A DNA stretch of 64,000 nucleotides. Source: Oceanispirochaeta crateris (GTDB lineage Bacteria; Spirochaetota; Spirochaetia; DSM-2461). The stretch covers positions 2,356,001-2,420,000 of the forward strand of contig NZ_CP036150.1 in NCBI RefSeq assembly GCF_008329965.1, in the 5' to 3' direction. The notes beneath the pieces were generated by a model. The model saw only the letters and a program-made list of their open reading frames with translations. It had not been told where the DNA came from and searched no databases. Made by a program: the position numbers and the translations under genes. Shown piece after piece: positions 56,162 to 64,000 of the stretch; within the stretch, counting starts at the first letter, position 1; every line of letters begins with the position of its first letter.

Positions 56162-56201
56162 ATAAAAAGGAACAGCCTCATATAACATATGAGGCTGTTC
56201 C
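56162..56201 (-). terminator. Terminator of the RND efflux operon
   Basis: A 15-base perfect stem (arms 56169-56183 and 56187-56201, with GGAACAGCCTCATAT on the left) and a three-base loop, followed on the minus strand by five T residues. It lies 40 bases after the PII-like gene. Confidence 0.9.
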
Positions 56202-56241: not shown

Positions 56242-56538
56242 TCAGATCTCTATGGGATTCGCAAAAGGAATAGCAAAAACTTTGATTCCCTCATTGGTAA
56301 AACGTTCTTTAATCTTTTTGAGGGCAGCCACAAAACGCAAAGCCATATCGTCCTCTGTATAAATAAGATAAATAAAGTTCTCTTCGGGCCAGACAGCATT
56401 TCCCGCCTTGGGTTCCGAGTGTCCCCGTCCATGAACGGCATTCAGACGGGTGTAGGAAAAGTCTATTTCGACACTCTTCAGAGCATCCTGAATATCATCT
56501 TCTACTGTATTATTGGCAATGATTTCCAATCGGGTCAT
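56242..56538 (-). CDS. PII-like protein coupled to the RND pump
   Basis: A 98-residue ferredoxin-like-fold protein. LEIIANNTVEDDIQDALKSV, the central NAVHGRGHSEPKAGNAVWPE (a flexible loop in the place of the PII T-loop) and FIYLIYTEDDMALRFVAALKKIK give the beta-alpha-beta repeat of the PII/DUF3240 superfamily. Its ATG overlaps the RND gene stop (ATGA), so it is made with the pump. No canonical PII uridylylation Tyr or nucleotide motif can be confirmed. I infer a small trimeric regulator that senses a ligand or metal and acts on the transporter. Confidence 0.7.
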   Translation of the reverse strand: MTRLEIIANNTVEDDIQDALKSVEIDFSYTRLNAVHGRGHSEPKAGNAVWPEENFIYLIYTEDDMALRFVAALKKIKERFTNEGIKVFAIPFANPIEI

Positions 56539-59500
56539 GCGTATTTTCTCCTATTCAAGCCTGCAAACAGCAGGGGGGTTACAAACAGAGTCATCAGGGT
56601 ACTCACAAAGAGGCCGCCGATAATTGTTTGAGCAATGGGCTGAACCTGCTCCGTACCGGCACCACCGAAGAAAGCCAGGGGAAACATCCCCAGAATGGTT
56701 GTGGCCGTTGACATAAGTATGGGTCTGAGCCTGTTCCCTGCGGCATTCACACAGGCATCTCTCAGATTATGGCCCCGCTTCAGAAGCATGTTGGTATAAT
56801 CCACTAAAACGATTCCGCTGTTGACAACCAGTCCGACCAGAACGACCAGACCGACTCCACTCATCATACTGAAGGTATTTCCCGAAAGGGTATAAAACCA
56901 GACTACCCCGATCATCATCAAAGGGATGGTAAAGAAGATGATAAAGGGATCTTTCAATGACTCAAATTGAGCGGCCATGATACCGAATACCAGCAGGATT
57001 GCGATAATGGCGATGATAAGCATCTCATGTCCCATGGAGCTTATATCCTCAAAGTCTCCTCCCAGACTGTAGGAAACATCGTCTGGAACAACAATCTGTG
57101 TATCGATAAGATTCTGAATATCCTTTTGAGCTTCCGTTGAGGCATACCCAGTCATGAGGCCGCCAGTGACATGCACAACGGTGGTTTCATTATCCCTGTT
57201 GATCGAAACGGGACCGGAAGACTTGATAAAATGAGCCACATTGGAGACCGCGATCCTGGTCCCGGAACTGTTAACCACAAAGATTTTACTCAAGTCGGGC
57301 ACAGAACTCCTGTCTGTCTCTCTGAGGATCAGCTCAACATCCAGTTCTTCCCCTCCAACCCGATAGGTGGTGGCTGTCTTACCATTGATTCCCGCACCAA
57401 TTTCACTGGCAACGGTGTACATATCCAGTCCCAGATCATAGGCCCGGTCCCTGTCAATCACGACTTCCAGCTGGGGCAGCCCCTCTTCCATATCGGTCGT
57501 GGGTTCTGTCACACCGGGTAAATTATCCGCCAGCATCTCTTTTAACTCATCCGCAAAGGCAATGGCCGCATCCAGGTCATCCGACTGAACCAGAATATCC
57601 ACCGGATTATCATTCCCCATTCCAGGCCCCCGGGAGGTAAATTCAAGAACAGCCCCGGGAAAGTCATTGAAATGCTGCCGCAGGATGGTTTTCATCTCGG
57701 CAACCGTAACGGTCTGATCCACAGCATCGGGCAGGTTCACTTCCACTGAGGACTTATTTGTGTAGGTACTTCCACCAAAACGTCCGGACTCACCCACGGA
57801 GACAATCATATTTTCATAGCCCCCGATCTCCTCAAAAAGGGCTACCAGCTGGAGGGTATCATGCTCGGTCTCAGCCAGAGGAGTTCCCATGGGTAACTCT
57901 AATGAAATGGTCAGAGAATCTTCACTCATAGGAGGGGCCAGGCTCACACCCAGTTGAGAGAACTGCATCATTGAGAAAACAAAGATCAGAACAACCAGAG
58001 TAAGAACTTTCCCCTTATGATCCAACAGGCGGGAAAGGAATTTTTTGTAGTTATTATCCAAATTCACAAAGCCCTGTTCAAAAAAACTATCGATCCGGCT
58101 CAGACTCTTAAACCGGAGGGGTTTTTGCTTTCTCGTATACACCTTGAGATAGTTCGCCGACATGGCGGGAACAAAGGTCAGAGCCACAATCAGGGAGACA
58201 GTCAAGGCGATGACGATAGTATAGGCAAGGGATTGAAGCATCTGTCCAAACATATCCAGATTATCTGCAAAGAGAATAATGGGAATGAAGACGCAGATCG
58301 TTGTGAGAGTGGATGCAGAGATAGACATCATCATCTCCCGGCTTCCCAGGATAGCGGAGGCTTTCAGCTTGGTCCCCCTCTCACGGAATCGGAAAATATT
58401 TTCCTGAACAACGATGGAGCAGTCCACAACCATCCCCAGTCCCAGGATGAGGCCAGTCAGGGTCATGAGGTTCATGGAAAGGCCCATAAAATACATAAAA
58501 AGGACCGTAATAAAAATGGAAATGGGAATAGACAGGGCAATGATGATGGTACTGGACCAGGTCCTCAGAAAAAAGAAGAGAACCACCATCGCCAGGAGTA
58601 TTCCCTCAAAGAGGGAGAGATAAGTCTGAGACATAATGGATGAAATCTGGTCGGAATCATCCGAGAGGATCACAAGGTTCACACCATCTGGCAATTCATC
58701 ATTTATAGATTTCAGCTGTGCCCGTATCGCATCTGAAACAGCAATACTGTTGGCATCTGATTCCTTCTGAACCGAGAGGGTCACCCCAAACTGTCCATTC
58801 ACATAGACCCGTTCCTCCTCGTCTTCATACCCCAGACTGACATCTGCCAGATCTTTTAAGAGGATGTCCCCTGAGATAACAACATTGGCAATCTCATCCA
58901 GACTGGTGAACTCCGCATCTGTTCGAATCAGGTAATTGGTCTGCCCATCCTGAATGCTCCCTGAGCCGAGCTGATAGTTTTGCTTGTCTAATGCGCTGGC
59001 GACCTGAGTGAGAGTCAGATTATACGCTTCCAGACGGTTCTGGGAGAGTTCTACATGAACAATCTTGTCCTGTCCGCCGTAAATACTCGTGGATGCCACC
59101 CCTCCCAGACGTTCAAGAAGAGACTGAACCGTATTATCCGCAATGGCACGGAGTTCATTCTGAGACAGATTTCCTTCAAGCCCTAGACTCATGATGGGCT
59201 TATCATCAGTACTCATCTTATACATCACGGGAGTATTCGCATCATCGGGAAGAAAATCAGTCACCATATCCAGCTTGTCCCGGATATCATTGGAGGCATC
59301 ATCCAGATCTTTTGAATAATCGAACTCCAGATTGATCAGACTGGATCCTTCGGAGGAAGTGGAGGTGATAGACTCCAGGTCACTCACATTGGAAAGTGCC
59401 TTTTCAAGGGTCTCTGTGACATTCTGCTCCACATCTTCAGGACCGGCACCGGAATAGCTTGTACTGACCATGATGACTGGCCGTTCCATATCCGGAAAGA

Positions 59501-59606
59501 GTTCCACCGGAATAGAGGGGACCAGAAAGGCCGCCAAACCTATAAATAGTGCAAATATAATGACAACCGTAACGGGACGGTGTACAACAGTTTCTGTTAA
59601 ATTCAT
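56535..59606 (-). CDS. RND-family efflux pump (HAE type, AcrB-like)
   Basis: Inner-membrane proton/drug antiporter of 1023 residues. It has an N-terminal helix, two large periplasmic porter domains and twelve membrane helices. In helix 4 GLGMVVDCSIVVQENIFR keeps one Asp of the AcrB Asp pair but has Cys at the second, as in several HAE groups with VDNS. The helix-10 region VGLVVNSGIVLVDYTNMLL is present. Opening residues VVHRPVTVVII and SIPVELFPDMERPVIMVSTSYSGAGPEDVEQNV are family-typical. It works with the fusion protein and TolC-type protein encoded just upstream. Substrates are not readable from sequence. Confidence 0.95.
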   Translation of the reverse strand: MNLTETVVHRPVTVVIIFALFIGLAAFLVPSIPVELFPDMERPVIMVSTSYSGAGPEDVEQNVTETLEKALSNVSDLESITSTSSEGSSLINLEFDYSKDLDDASNDIRDKLDMVTDFLPDDANTPVMYKMSTDDKPIMSLGLEGNLSQNELRAIADNTVQSLLERLGGVASTSIYGGQDKIVHVELSQNRLEAYNLTLTQVASALDKQNYQLGSGSIQDGQTNYLIRTDAEFTSLDEIANVVISGDILLKDLADVSLGYEDEEERVYVNGQFGVTLSVQKESDANSIAVSDAIRAQLKSINDELPDGVNLVILSDDSDQISSIMSQTYLSLFEGILLAMVVLFFFLRTWSSTIIIALSIPISIFITVLFMYFMGLSMNLMTLTGLILGLGMVVDCSIVVQENIFRFRERGTKLKASAILGSREMMMSISASTLTTICVFIPIILFADNLDMFGQMLQSLAYTIVIALTVSLIVALTFVPAMSANYLKVYTRKQKPLRFKSLSRIDSFFEQGFVNLDNNYKKFLSRLLDHKGKVLTLVVLIFVFSMMQFSQLGVSLAPPMSEDSLTISLELPMGTPLAETEHDTLQLVALFEEIGGYENMIVSVGESGRFGGSTYTNKSSVEVNLPDAVDQTVTVAEMKTILRQHFNDFPGAVLEFTSRGPGMGNDNPVDILVQSDDLDAAIAFADELKEMLADNLPGVTEPTTDMEEGLPQLEVVIDRDRAYDLGLDMYTVASEIGAGINGKTATTYRVGGEELDVELILRETDRSSVPDLSKIFVVNSSGTRIAVSNVAHFIKSSGPVSINRDNETTVVHVTGGLMTGYASTEAQKDIQNLIDTQIVVPDDVSYSLGGDFEDISSMGHEMLIIAIIAILLVFGIMAAQFESLKDPFIIFFTIPLMMIGVVWFYTLSGNTFSMMSGVGLVVLVGLVVNSGIVLVDYTNMLLKRGHNLRDACVNAAGNRLRPILMSTATTILGMFPLAFFGGAGTEQVQPIAQTIIGGLFVSTLMTLFVTPLLFAGLNRRKYA

Positions 59607-59618
59607 GAATATGCTCCC

Positions 59619-60584
59619 TTACTCTGTAACTCTGACAGAGGAACCGTCTTGAAGCATGGTTTGTCCTCTGACAATCACCCGGTCACCAGCAGAAAGTCCG
59701 CTAAGAACCTCGACCCTGCCGTCCAGAACCAATCCTGTTTCCACAAATGTCTGGAGAGCCGTGTTATCCGGTGAAACAATATAAACAAAACGAGAGTCAT
59801 CACCTTCAATCAAACTCTCCGAAGGAATGGTAAGAACATCTTCTTTCTTCTCTGTGATCAATTTGATGGATCCGAACATCCCCGATTTAACCCGACCGTC
59901 TTCGTTCTCCAGTGAAATCTTAATTTCCATGGTCCGGGAGCTTTTATTCAAAACAGGACTGATTTCAGAAACAAAGCCTGAAAAGACTTCACCAGGGAAA
60001 GGGGCAAACCCGATTTCGGCTCGTTGCCTTAGTTTAATTGACGCCATATCTTTTTCAGAAATGAAGCTATCCAACTGCATATTTGTTAGATCTCCCACAG
60101 TAGCCAGGGGAACTTGAGTGGTTGAGATGGTAGCCCCCACATTATAGGGAAGATCTGTGACAATACCGCTTATGGTAGACTTTACAGGACTGGCGACATA
60201 GATCTGTCCTGGTAAGGAGGGGTCCACTTCTGCAATAATCTGCCCTTTACGGACATAATCCCCCAGAGACACTGAAAGCTTTGTCAGTTTTCCTGCTGCA
60301 TCTGGATAAATATCCACACTGGTTTCGGCAATCACATCCCCGTTGAACTTCAGGTAGTTTTCCATGATTCCCGGTTCCATTGTTTCAACCAGGACCGAAT
60401 AGGTCACAGATTCTTCTGAACCACTATCCCCTCCTGGACGTCCTCCTGGACCTCCAGGAGCGCCGCTAATGGGAGCATCTTTGCCAAAGACAGAGAAGGC
60501 CATCGCCCCCAAAACAACGACAATCAATACAATCAGGGCAATACCCATCATCCGGGCCTGTTTCTTATTCTTTATGTCTTCCAT
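59619..60584 (-). CDS. Membrane fusion protein of the RND system (HlyD/AcrA family)
   Basis: A 321-residue periplasmic adaptor with an N-terminal membrane anchor (MMGIALIVLIVVVLGAMAF) rather than a lipobox, then a GGPGGRPGG linker. The lipoyl halves are VDIYPDAAGKLTKLSVSLGDYVRKGQIIAEVDP and PVKSTISGIVTDLPYNVGATIS, followed by beta-barrel (TMEIKISLENEDGRVKSGMFGSI) and membrane-proximal domains ending SAGDRVIVRGQTMLQDGSSV. The helical hairpin is very short, so it should reach TolC only as a compact ring. The ATG shares one base with the TolC-type stop; the RND gene follows 12 bases later. Confidence 0.93.
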   Translation of the reverse strand: MEDIKNKKQARMMGIALIVLIVVVLGAMAFSVFGKDAPISGAPGGPGGRPGGDSGSEESVTYSVLVETMEPGIMENYLKFNGDVIAETSVDIYPDAAGKLTKLSVSLGDYVRKGQIIAEVDPSLPGQIYVASPVKSTISGIVTDLPYNVGATISTTQVPLATVGDLTNMQLDSFISEKDMASIKLRQRAEIGFAPFPGEVFSGFVSEISPVLNKSSRTMEIKISLENEDGRVKSGMFGSIKLITEKKEDVLTIPSESLIEGDDSRFVYIVSPDNTALQTFVETGLVLDGRVEVLSGLSAGDRVIVRGQTMLQDGSSVRVTE

Positions 60585-61888
60585 TATGATTCTCCTTGTA
60601 TCTCATCTAAAGTGCTATTGAGGGCATATTCCAAATCAATCAACCCGGATAAATAGCTGTAACGGCTTTGAAGAAGGTCTTCATTTGCCGACAGAAGCTT
60701 GTTTTGTGCATCTTCCAGATCCAAAAGCTCCTTAGTTCCAAACTCATAAGCCGATTCTGTCATCTCATAGGTTTTCTGTGCCAGTTCCACGCTGAAGGCA
60801 GTTATTTCAATATTCTCTAAATATCCTTCAAGCTGCATTACGAGGGTATGGATATCCTGCTCTGCGGAATCCATGATTTCCTGAAGCTGCAAACGGGCTT
60901 GCTCTACCTCACGGACCGTATCTTTGATCTCCAGCGTATCCTCGGAACCAGGGATAAAACCATTCAGAGGCAACGAAAGGGAGAGTGTAAGCGAAACAGC
61001 ATCATTCCAATCCAGATCTGATGCATCATAGGCATAATTGCTCCAATCTCCGCTCAGACTTATAGAGGGGGAACGCTTACTAAAATTGGTAGCCTCCTTG
61101 AGATTTTCCTGAATATCCAGATTCTTAACAGCACTCTGAACATCCAATCTTTTGGCCATAAACTTATTAATCAAAGACGAGGCATCCAGATCTAAAACCG
61201 GAGTATCCAGAGATCCAGTGACATCAATCTCTTGATTAAGATCCAATCCTAAAAGATTTTTAAAAGACATCAGCTGTGTCTCATAGGATGTTTTGGTATT
61301 GGTATAGGACGGCCGGATGCTCTCATAAGAGTTCCTAGATTCCAGGACCGAAAGCTCAGAAGCCAGACCGTTTTCAAAATTTGTTTTAGTCTGGATATAG
61401 CGCTTCTCGGCCAGATCTAGGTTCTTTTTCACCAGTTCCAGATTTTCCTTATTCGCCAGCAGGTAGTAAAACTGCTTTCTTACGCTACTAATCAGCTGAT
61501 TCTTGGCAGTTTCATAGGAAAGAGACTGTGAATCATAACTAAGCTGATCCGCATCCATAGCCTGAATGGCCGCATAGTTTAGAGTCAAAGAAGCATCAAC
61601 TGATCCCCAGACTGTCCAACTATCACCATCCTTGGAGGAATCCACCGTAAACAACTCTTCAGAACGGGTCGTCCCACCTGAGACACTGAAATCCGGTAGG
61701 AACACATTCCAGCTATTTTCATTGGATTCTTGGCTGCTTTCCAAATCCAGCAGATTGGATTTAAGACTGAGGTTTTGCCCCAGGGCCAAGCTGACAGCCA
61801 GATCCTCTGTTAAGATTAAGGGCTCTTGGGCTGACAGGGACATTGTCACTCCTGCCAATATTAGAAATAAACAGTAGACTTTTCTCAT
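60584..61888 (-). CDS. TolC-family outer-membrane efflux protein
   Basis: A 434-residue outer-membrane factor. Signal peptide MRKVYCLFLILAGVTMSLSA, then two repeated helix-strand units typical of OEP: SLALGQNLSLKSNLLDLESS with the long coil ending in SVRKQFYYLLANKENLELVKKNLDLAEKRY, and later DSAEQDIHTLVMQLEGYLENIEI with the C-terminal ELLDLEDAQNKLLSANEDLLQSRYSYLSGLIDLEYAL. The ATG at 61888 has AAGGA eight bases upstream; a longer frame adds only a non-signal stretch. It leads the tolC-mfp-rnd-PII operon. Confidence 0.92.
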   Translation of the reverse strand: MRKVYCLFLILAGVTMSLSAQEPLILTEDLAVSLALGQNLSLKSNLLDLESSQESNENSWNVFLPDFSVSGGTTRSEELFTVDSSKDGDSWTVWGSVDASLTLNYAAIQAMDADQLSYDSQSLSYETAKNQLISSVRKQFYYLLANKENLELVKKNLDLAEKRYIQTKTNFENGLASELSVLESRNSYESIRPSYTNTKTSYETQLMSFKNLLGLDLNQEIDVTGSLDTPVLDLDASSLINKFMAKRLDVQSAVKNLDIQENLKEATNFSKRSPSISLSGDWSNYAYDASDLDWNDAVSLTLSLSLPLNGFIPGSEDTLEIKDTVREVEQARLQLQEIMDSAEQDIHTLVMQLEGYLENIEITAFSVELAQKTYEMTESAYEFGTKELLDLEDAQNKLLSANEDLLQSRYSYLSGLIDLEYALNSTLDEIQGES

Positions 61889-61989
61889 AAACTTATCCTT
61901 TTCATTTTTGCTGTCACCCTGCATAAGCAGGAACCATGCCAATTCATTAAAGGTTGTTTAGAGGCTCTCTTTAATGTAAAAAGGAAAAT

Positions 61990-63228
61990 TTAGATGTGCA
62001 GATTTTTCACAGCTGTCGTTTTTTTCACAGCAGACTTGAGCTTTGAAAGCAGATTCAAAATACCATACCCGAACCCTAGGATAAGAACTGAGATCCCGAC
62101 TCTGAAAAACAGCGTTCCTTCTGGAAGACGCGTGAGAATAGGTTGCAACAGCAATGGCGATAGGAATTGTCCTAAGAAAGCAGAGGCCGTCATGTATCCC
62201 AGAATCTGCCCCCGTGATTCGGGAATAGAAATATCCTGAAGCCAGACAGAGGTATTTGGAACGACCAAGCCGGTTCCCAGTCCGCAAAGAAGGATTCCTC
62301 CAAAAAGGCCTAAAAGACCGGGCTTCAAACCGATGAGAATAAATCCGGCACCCATCAGGACAAAGTAGAGGCCATAGATCATCACTGGCGAAAGTTGCCT
62401 TCTGATCTTATGATAAAAGGAGGCGGTGAAAAAACTTGCTAAATTCAGAAGGATCAGAATCCCTCCCATAAGAGAAGTACTGCTCCTGTTCTGCTGCTTT
62501 AGAACAAAGGGAAGCTGAGTATGGATCATAAGCAGAAAAATCATACAGAGAAAAACTGAAAGGTATATGAGGAGAATCAAACCAACAGGATTTCTTTTCC
62601 TTTTTGACTCTTCCAATACAGCTGGTTTTAATCGAGGTGGTTCCTTGAGAATAGCGGCGGCAGGAAGGATAAGGAATGAAAGAAGATAGACGAGGAATGG
62701 CGTTCTCCAGGAAATCTCTGCTAAAAAACCTGCTCCTCCCACAAAGATCATCCCACCCAGGCTGACAAAGGCCCCCTGAAGTCCTAACAATCTCCTTCGC
62801 CGATCTCCAGAATAGAAGTCTCCTATCAGAGCAGAGGCCATTGTAAAGGTTGTTCCCAGCCCCAGACCAAGGAGCCCCCGGCCAAGTAGAATCAAACGGA
62901 TATCCTGAAGATAAAACCCCGAAGATCCGCCGATCCCGTAAATAATCAGTCCCCAAAAGAGTATTTTTTTTCTTCCCCATAAATCACTGAGTTTTCCAGT
63001 GAGAGGAGAGATAAGCGCTATGAAAAGTGTCGGCAGAGTCAGGGCCAGTTTCACAAGGATTTCCGCAGAGGGCAGACTGCGGAACTCTTCCGCCATCAGG
63101 GGTAGAGAGGATGTAATAACAGCACTGGTCACATAAAGGCTACTGGCAAAGAGAAGGACCACAGCGCCATGTTTTTGAGAATCAAAACCATCAGCCCTGT
63201 CCGAGTCCTGTTTTAAACCCTTATTCAT
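61990..63228 (-). CDS. Major facilitator superfamily transporter
   Basis: A 412-residue inner-membrane carrier with twelve predicted helices in two halves. The loop 2-3 motif [16 protein letters not shown] is the MFS signature, and [24 protein letters not shown] is the helix-4/5 motif of the drug-efflux (DHA1, Bcr/CflA-like) group. The last residues are basic and cytoplasmic. Substrate is unknown. It overlaps the sigma-54 regulator gene upstream by eight bases, so it may be part of the same transcript, and it precedes the efflux operon by about 100 bases. Confidence 0.9.
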
Positions 63229-64000
63229 CTAGCCCGTATTCTTTGATCTTATTGATGATGGTTCTCCGAGAAATACCCAGCTCTTTGGCGGCATGACTCC
63301 GGTTTCCTTCCCAACGATGCAAAGCGGCTAGAATAGAGTCCTTTTCCTGTTCTTTTAGAGTCCTTCCGCCATCAGTACTGAATCCCTCCGGGATTTGTGC
63401 TTTGGTGACGTTAATATCGGACAACTCCAACTCTTCTGCGGACAACACATCACCCTCGGCAAAAATCATAGCCCTTTCCAAAAGGTTTTCGAGTTCTCGG
63501 ATATTCCCAGGGAAAGAGTAAGCATTCAGTTTCTCCCAGGCTTCTCGGCTCAGTGTCTCGACATGCATATCCATCTTACGATTCAGTTTTTCAAGCAGGA
63601 ATCCGGTCAGCCTCGGTAAATCGTCCATTCTACTTCTGAGGGGAGGAATGGCAAGGCGGGCTACATTCAGGCGATAATAGAGGTCTTCACGGAATGATCC
63701 ATCCTGGACCATCTCCTCTAGATTTCGGTTTGTGGCAGTAATAATACGGGAGTCAATGGTCAGATCTTTCAGGCCTCCCAGACGGCGGAAGCTTCTATCT
63801 TGAAGAACCCTCAACAGCTTTACCTGAAGATTCAAAGGCATCTCCCCGATTTCATCCAGAAAAAGGGATCCCCCCGAGGCAGTTTCCAACAAGCCCTGCT
63901 TCATCTTGTCTGCACCGGTAAAGGCTCCTTGTTCATACCCGAAAAGTTCACTTTCCAGGAGATTTTCGGGTACTCCTCCCACATTCAGGGCTACAAAGGG
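63221..64000 (-). CDS. Sigma-54-dependent transcriptional activator, C-terminal part (runs off the right edge)
   Basis: About 260 C-terminal residues of an NtrC-type AAA+ activator. The visible AAA+ part begins after the Walker A loop: [15 protein letters not shown] contains the GAFTGA loop that contacts sigma-54, then the Walker B segment [26 protein letters not shown], the RLGG sensor I region, the arginine-finger [11 protein letters not shown] and sensor [17 protein letters not shown]. The end has a Fis-type HTH ([22 protein letters not shown]). The lead-in [14 protein letters not shown] differs from the more usual VNCAALPENLLE. The N-terminal sensory domain and Walker A are outside the window. 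Confidence 0.93.

Follow-up and report, generated by a model that had tools for sequence, protein, structure and literature searches.

Why should a gene for a PII-like protein lie at the end of an operon for a tripartite efflux pump? The question is raised by a locus of Oceanispirochaeta crateris within a 64,000-nucleotide stretch of contig NZ_CP036150.1 (positions 2,356,001 to 2,420,000; "the window" hereafter means this whole stretch, which was the DNA analysed), where the start of a small PII-like gene overlaps the stop of a gene for a resistance-nodulation-division (RND) permease. GlnK, a protein of PII fold, is encoded together with AmtB, a membrane transporter that is a trimer; RND pumps are also trimers, whose control is usually ascribed to transcription and to small membrane proteins such as AcrZ. 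RND pumps are not among the PII targets named in those portions of the literature that were available to us. The reading that we favor, at a probability of roughly 0.6 and by analogy with GlnK-AmtB and with SbtB and its transporter SbtA, is that the PII-like protein would be a dedicated fourth, cytoplasmic component of the tripartite pump, docking under the RND trimer. Its observed basis consists of the gene order, the overlapping start and stop, the conserved pairing of the two genes, and fusions that place the PII-like domain soon after the RND domain; the PII fold of the predicted monomer points the same way, as do some cytoplasmic-loop residues that covary with whether the gene is present. 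The protein family concerned (PG0541), its association with transporters and the occurrence of a PII-like gene beside a CzcABC metal pump were already known. The present analysis adds the near-obligate pairing with RND genes, the in-frame fusions, and a residue signature that points to a possible interface.

Pairing of PII-like and RND genes

Read along the minus strand, the genes run from a TolC-type outer membrane factor (OMF) through a periplasmic adaptor and the RND permease to the PII-like gene, with Pfam matches to OEP, HlyD_D23, ACR_tran and P-II, respectively (Table 1). The initial annotation, which had the PII-like gene close a TolC-adaptor-RND operon, is borne out by these matches, and its coordinates and ATGA overlap are also correct, the two open reading frames sharing four bases. 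A hairpin and a T run follow the stop of the PII-like gene. Terminator-like sites number 6 in the region, as compared to a mean of 6.0 in shuffled sequences, and the stem at 56201-56169 is the longest of the six. The overlap is of a kind that may couple the translation of the RND and PII-like genes.

A search of 198 genomes of the spirochaete phylum with the NCBIfam model NF045581 ("PG0541 family transporter-associated protein") returned 74 places, spread over 59 genomes; 70 of these places score above the cut-off. For 64 of the 70 members the gene follows an RND gene of the same strand at a distance of no more than 400 nt; the remaining six comprise four in-frame fusions to the RND C-terminus, one member at a contig edge, and one that is not adjacent. 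The initial annotation had allowed that the genomic neighbours might prove random; with 68 of 70 members adjoining or fused to an RND gene, they are not, and the window's own member, by virtue of its ATGA overlap, shares the position beside a transporter gene that goes with the family. In the non-adjacent case, on the same contig as L124, an RND gene is found 1.4 kb upstream, apparently with one gene between. The intervening gene is presumably a FliM-like flagellar gene, which thus stands beside the PII-like gene (L124, JAFYAI010000144.1; also L037), and the genome in question (G046) also holds one of the fused genes, L048. Two of the four places below the cut-off follow a bicarbonate-transporter gene, and for the two weakest no RND gene was found upstream.

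The same arrangement emerged from a pattern search of titled genome contigs, some of which are shared with the 198-genome set, using a tight family alignment. Among the best 80 of 235 relatives, an RND gene lies upstream in all 80 (directly so in 77, and within 1.4 kb in three), and in 49 of the 77 loci with a directly adjacent RND gene the overlap is exactly -4 nt. The arrangement is far beyond chance, and a second RND and PII-like pair is present in this genome itself.

It also extends beyond the spirochaetes. A plasmid search with the window protein gave two weak places only, one of which led to operons of Bacteroidota. Annotated records of Parabacteroides distasonis and Bacteroides finegoldii have TolC, adaptor, RND and PG0541 genes in the order seen in the window; for an unannotated Phocaeicola record the check was limited to the long RND-type frame that precedes the PII-like gene. 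The PII-like proteins of the window and of Parabacteroides are 25% identical.

Fusions and inheritance

In four loci (L045-L048) no stop codon ends the RND frame, which continues across a linker some tens of residues long and takes in a full PII-like domain; one of these loci, L045, is cut at the edge of its locus and has a full open frame of 1140 aa. Since RND C-termini are cytoplasmic, by homology to AcrB, the fused domain should be cytoplasmic as well and present in one copy per pump protomer. On a tree of RND proteins L046 and L047 are grouped with full support. Fusion probably arose in two events, because L048 (own node support 0.53) falls outside the fully supported clade that contains L046, L047 and three unfused pairs.

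The tree comprises 179 RND proteins, 113 with a PII-like partner (three of them fused) and 66 without, where "unpaired" means that no PII-like gene lies within 1.5 kb downstream, given at least 500 bp of downstream sequence; four RND genes with less than 500 bp, and the truncated fusion L045, were left off. The sample is not a random one: paired genes came from the PII matches and unpaired genes from the higher-scoring part of the PF00873 matches listed, a capped set. Across this tree the pairing label changes 4 times, as compared to a mean of 53.7 and a minimum of 45 in 200 shuffles, i.e., the pairing is inherited. Vertical inheritance alone could hold neighbours together, and one may ask whether an unrelated PII-like gene has simply been carried along with the pump. 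This passive hitch-hiking was already disfavoured and we regard it as highly improbable: few family members lie away from RND genes in the 198 genomes searched, the same pairing occurs in two phyla despite the 25% identity, and in-frame fusions have formed, probably in two lineages. That the protein is a dedicated partner of the pump, as first proposed, is backed by the four fusions and, more weakly, by a putative signature common to the cytoplasmic loops of the paired pumps.

The adaptors of these operons have a character of their own. An adaptor without the alpha-hairpin, as in BesA of Borrelia burgdorferi, was found in 103 of 104 paired and both of two fused operons, and in only 14 of the 24 unpaired operons for which an upstream adaptor was found, so that in the spirochaete phylum PII pairing and hairpin-less adaptors go together. 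The segment between the two lipoyl halves is 71 residues long in Parabacteroides versus 26 in the window.

Family and fold of the PII-like protein

The window protein scores 93.9 bits against NF045581 (cut-off 45; residues 3-90), and its match to Pfam P-II lies right at the cut-off of 25 bits. An AlphaFold2 model of the monomer, built on a 58-sequence alignment (mean predicted local distance difference test score 85.4), has the order beta-alpha-beta-beta-alpha-beta, which corresponds to the ferredoxin-like fold of the PII superfamily with a T-loop between strands 2 and 3; its least certain part, residues 42-49, lies inside this loop. The top Foldseek matches of the model are PII-like TTHA0516, CPII, SbtB and GlnZ, and VIA-align gave Z-scores of up to 11.5, with CPII (5d4n) superposing at a root-mean-square deviation of 2.3 over 85 residues. 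PII and PII-like structures (CPII, GlnK/GlnB/GlnZ, SbtB, PstA and the DUF3240 structure 3ce8) lead the matches by both methods, so the predicted fold agrees with the PII-like structure that had been supposed. The alternative label DUF3240 finds no support in the sequence, as the Pfam and NCBIfam scans list no such family for the window protein; among the fold matches 3ce8 (Z 10.7) is tied with many PII proteins. Searches of PDB sequences were less telling, the window protein as sole query giving no match and the family profile giving only weak ones: the best five (E 0.08-0.11) comprise four PII or PII-like proteins and a magnetosome protein, with T-box proteins ranking after them.

A diverse alignment of 26 sequences has G37, W50, P51, N54 and G84 invariant and Y29, T30, G39 and G46 nearly so, and the motif WPxxN is found in 68 of the 69 distinct sequences from the phylum.

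A residue signature on the cytoplasmic loops of the pump

The topology of RND sites was transferred through an alignment from the helix boundaries of AcrB. At a strict threshold 5 of the 8 sites that separate paired from unpaired pumps lie on cytoplasmic loops (p 0.0016), and at a middling one 10 of 34 (p 0.01). In a hold-out test, sites picked on 99 paired and 48 unpaired pumps were applied to the 13 pumps of a separate paired clade and the 14 of an unpaired clade beside it; transfer was 0.25 for cytoplasmic sites versus 0.05 for the others (permutation p 0.019), and strong transfer was seen for 4 of 16 cytoplasmic versus 4 of 74 other sites (Fisher p 0.03), the four cytoplasmic ones being R348, L420, M425 and R944. 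A score over nine sites reaches 7 or more in 112 of 113 paired pumps and stays at 4 or below in 65 of 66 unpaired ones, the sites having been chosen on the same data. Its core, Y937-[LIM]940-R944 in the loop between transmembrane helices (TM) 10 and 11, occurs within the phylum in 111 of 113 paired pumps, as compared to 2 of 66 unpaired ones, and in all three Bacteroidota operons with a PII-like gene, and was found in none of eight RND genes of Bacillota and Alphaproteobacteria without a PII-like gene in their 1.5 kb flanks, these eight having been hand-picked among 40 of at least 5000 records. The residue test outside the phylum is thus a small one, three Bacteroidota operons and eight other RND genes. 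At positions 420 and 940 nearly every paired pump has a hydrophobic residue and unpaired pumps often have a charged or polar one, as would be expected of a buried contact. The statistics are modest; they suggest that paired pumps have cytoplasmic-loop residues in common that are mostly missing from unpaired ones, and hint at where to look for an interface.

A possible mechanism

We envisage that the PII-like protein, presumably a homotrimer like its fold relatives, would dock under the RND trimer, on its cytoplasmic side. Contact with the TM4-TM5 and TM10-TM11 loops would be made by the flexible T-loop, in which G-x-G...G...WPxxN is conserved, and a small cytoplasmic ligand (a nucleotide, an anion or a metal) would bind to the PII-like protein. 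Because TM4 and TM10 hold the proton-relay residues of AcrB, docking near these helices could lock or release the conformational cycle of the pump upon ligand binding; that transport would be gated by a ligand is suggested by the PII fold together with the precedents of SbtB and GlnK. The trimeric state, the direct binding to RND, the docking site, the gating and the direction of control are what we infer. RND pumps of this class may, in other words, carry a built-in cytoplasmic sensor, as ammonium channels do.

A broader and more tentative version, to which we give somewhat less than even odds, is that the RND pumps of spirochaetes and Bacteroidota would form a third class of PII-gated trimeric transporter beside AmtB and SbtA, in which a trimeric PII-like protein, in some species fused to the pump, would clamp TM4 and TM10 at their cytoplasmic ends and make efflux dependent on a metabolite of the cytoplasm. 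If true, RND efflux would be under a ligand-gated, post-translational form of control, which we did not find described in the literature examined, and it would be coupled to the metabolism of the cell through a dedicated PII-type subunit. Given the fusions and the residue signature, the docking idea is directly testable by point mutation.

Several observations weigh against docking, against sensing, or against both. In essence the paired set consists of two or three clades. Whether cytoplasmic sites are enriched depends on the threshold, the loose set (13 of 72 sites, p 0.15) not being significant; the training sites of the hold-out test, with 16 of 90 cytoplasmic against a background of 13%, have no clear enrichment; and among 50 control splits made within paired or within unpaired pumps, the cytoplasmic counts in the top 10, 20, 30 and 50 sites were matched 5, 2, 1 and 1 times. 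The three Bacteroidota pumps keep only three of the nine signature residues (Y937, L940 and R944), and the absence of the other six counts against a fixed docking site; two of their three PII-like proteins have C in place of the N of WPxxN. The nucleotide motifs of PII proteins are also gone: the ATP motif GDGK occurs in none of the 69 distinct family sequences checked, R[TS]GE in three only (L051, L063 and L089), where it is placed in the T-loop region and not as a C-loop, and no C-loop is seen in alignment A4. The PG0541 family thus lacks the B-loop GDGK and C-loop R[TS]GE nucleotide-binding motifs of canonical PII (GlnB/GlnK), and classical sensing of ATP and 2-oxoglutarate appears unlikely. 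GDGK and the C-loop motif are kept by this genome's own two GlnK-like PII proteins, each linked to a gene that, from its translation, we take to be AmtB.

A further RND gene of this genome (L094, G000:C1:85269-88349, minus strand), sister to the clade of the window pump, belongs among these contrary observations, as it has the full nine-residue signature with no PII-like gene beside it and a hairpin-like repeat after its stop. The L094 pump may use one of the genome's two PII-like proteins in trans, or may have lost a partner of its own.

The loss of the canonical nucleotide motifs leads to the main rival reading, in which the protein is a constitutive accessory subunit that binds the pump and senses nothing, serving only to stabilise the RND trimer or to tune its specificity, as AcrZ does for AcrB. 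Near-obligate coupling and fusions fit a subunit as well as they fit a sensor. PII-fold relatives are, as a rule, ligand sensors, and several entries for CPII and SbtB, which are close to it in fold, have a nucleotide bound, judging by entry titles; on balance we consider a purely structural role unlikely, its precedents being the RND modulators AcrZ and YajC (available part of PMC10710835).

Pump class and proton relay

The permease of the pump has a strong match to Pfam ACR_tran and falls below the cut-off of every NCBIfam RND subfamily model shown. The best score, 679.8 bits, is to the multidrug-type model NF033617 (cut-off 1250); TIGR00915 gives 463.8 against 940.35, and the heavy-metal CusA/CzcA model TIGR00914 gives 443.5 against 701.45. 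As the multidrug models outscore CusA/CzcA, the "multidrug-type" of the initial annotation survives as a leaning, and not as an assignment.

These scores leave room for a metal or substrate sensor or chaperone of the CutA1/PII-NG type, which would act on cytoplasmic metal or on gene regulation and would not dock on the pump. A precedent is PII-NG, which lies in a CzcABC-type RND operon of Geobacter and has been proposed to be an intracellular cobalt sensor (PMC7726332, in the part available). A histidine pair in the T-loop (PHxGxHxWP-like) is seen in some of the family members from the spirochaete phylum and in all three from Bacteroidota; the window protein lacks such a pair and has a single histidine, in a GHSEP stretch. 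Given also that the RND protein stays under the CusA/CzcA cut-off and that the fusions and the putative loop signature point to the pump itself, we find such a sensor improbable, if less so than the most remote of the readings considered here.

Residues D395, C396 and N929 of the permease occupy, by alignment, what we take to be the positions of AcrB D407, D408 and K940. The K940 position is N and the D407 position D in every one of the 113 paired pumps, with position 396 (AcrB D408) variable; N929 is found in 29 of 66 unpaired pumps. The proton relay of the paired pumps would therefore appear to be unlike that of AcrB.

Comparison with known systems

As a member of the PG0541 family, with the same TolC-adaptor-RND-PG0541 order as in Parabacteroides and Bacteroides, the window protein has no difference at the level of the family. 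PG0541 itself is listed as a (conserved) hypothetical protein in the available parts of PMC1887533 and PMC4493947. SbtB, partner of the bicarbonate transporter SbtA, resembles the window protein in its PII-like fold and in having its gene directly after the transporter gene, and differs in transporter family and T-loop motif. Pairs resembling SbtA-SbtB were met with among the places below the cut-off, namely L060 (G062) and L061 (G181), each a PII-like gene after a bicarbonate-transporter gene; the transporter is Sbt_1 by Pfam at L060 and by the look of its translation at L061, and the PII-like gene of G062 scores 39.2 bits against the NF045581 cut-off of 45. GlnK-AmtB is alike by the PII fold, with the complex 2ns1 among the fold matches; the window protein differs from GlnK in lacking the GDGK and C-loop motifs, and its partner is an RND pump and not a channel.

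PII-NG of the CzcABC operons is likewise a PII-family gene in an RND operon, but by its description, on which alone we compare it, it belongs with the heavy-metal RND class, comes first in its operon and evolved from GlnB/GlnK (PMC7726332, in part). With this system in print for Geobacter and the family named "transporter-associated" by NCBI, the view that such control is "little-described" was overstated. Our search of the open-licence literature found no study tying the PG0541 family to RND pumps, which is no proof of absence in print; a study of the iron response in Bacteroidetes names a P-II protein and RND pumps and, in the part available, draws no link between them (PMC10434189).

BesCAB of Borrelia burgdorferi has in common with the window the order OMF-adaptor-RND (PMC2279261) and a hairpin-less adaptor (PMC3807786), and in the available portions of the former the operon is described as three genes, with a fourth unmentioned. 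Seven loci of one genus with small genomes, which we have taken for Borreliaceae, carry a PII-like gene after a besB-like RND gene; by numbering, the gene behind besB would be bb0139. If the broader reading, of a PII-gated class of RND pumps, is right, the Bes pump of the Lyme spirochaete would have an unrecognised fourth subunit. BB0017 was considered as the Borrelia counterpart and rejected, as it is a different PII-like protein (PMC6516651, in part).

Neighbouring genes and other observations

Table 1. Features of the locus, in window coordinates
Feature	Position	Strand	Remarks
Terminator-like hairpin	56169..56201	-	15 pairs, then TTTTT; 3' of the PII-like gene stop
PII-like protein, PG0541 family	56242..56538	-	98 aa; ATG start; T-loop motif GxG...G...WPEEN at residues 37-54
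ATGA overlap	56535..56538	-	PII-like gene start within RND gene stop; exactly -4 nt
RND permease	56535..59606	-	1023 aa; D395, C396, N929; putative cytoplasmic-loop signature R348 F407 R408 K413 L420 M425 Y937 M940 R944
Codon of RND residue N929	56820-56822		
Codon of RND residue D395	58422-58424		
Periplasmic adaptor	59619..60584	-	321 aa; alpha-hairpin apparently missing between the two lipoyl halves, to judge from a 26-residue segment
TolC-type OMF	60584..61942	-	listed start is TTG; alternatives 6 or 18 codons downstream possible
Major facilitator superfamily (MFS) transporter	61990..63228	-	47 bp upstream of OMF, same strand
NtrC-type response regulator	63221..64000	-	receiver, sigma-54 AAA+, Fis helix-turn-helix; continues past window end

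Outside the window, a histidine kinase gene overlaps the start of the NtrC-type regulator by one base, and the genes for the kinase, the regulator, the MFS transporter and the pump are separated by small gaps or have overlapping ends (63221-64000 of the window and L266:3722-6414). The MFS gene is possibly part of the transcription unit of the pump genes, and from the spacing a single unit for the regulator, MFS, pump and PII-like genes is plausible. The kinase and NtrC-type regulator upstream suggest a sigma-54-dependent control of the operon. Their presence on the same strand in this genome also raises the thought that the PII-like protein might regulate this two-component system, as GlnB does NtrB, to which we attach very little weight: the link to RND recurs across the phylum, and in both of the annotated Bacteroidota operons the upstream regulator is of the TetR/AcrR type.

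Two other places in this genome may be recorded. A third, divergent PII-family protein (L050, G000:C1:2932969-2933277, minus strand; Pfam P-II 25.3 bits) has as neighbours what look to us like Mrp-type antiporter genes and a phosphotransferase system EIIA-like gene, and would thus again be linked to transporters. RND-family matches at G000:C1:935820-941459 (minus strand) fall in several open frames that lie next to each other, a pattern suggestive either of one or two RND genes that are split or decayed or of an RND arrangement made up of several genes.

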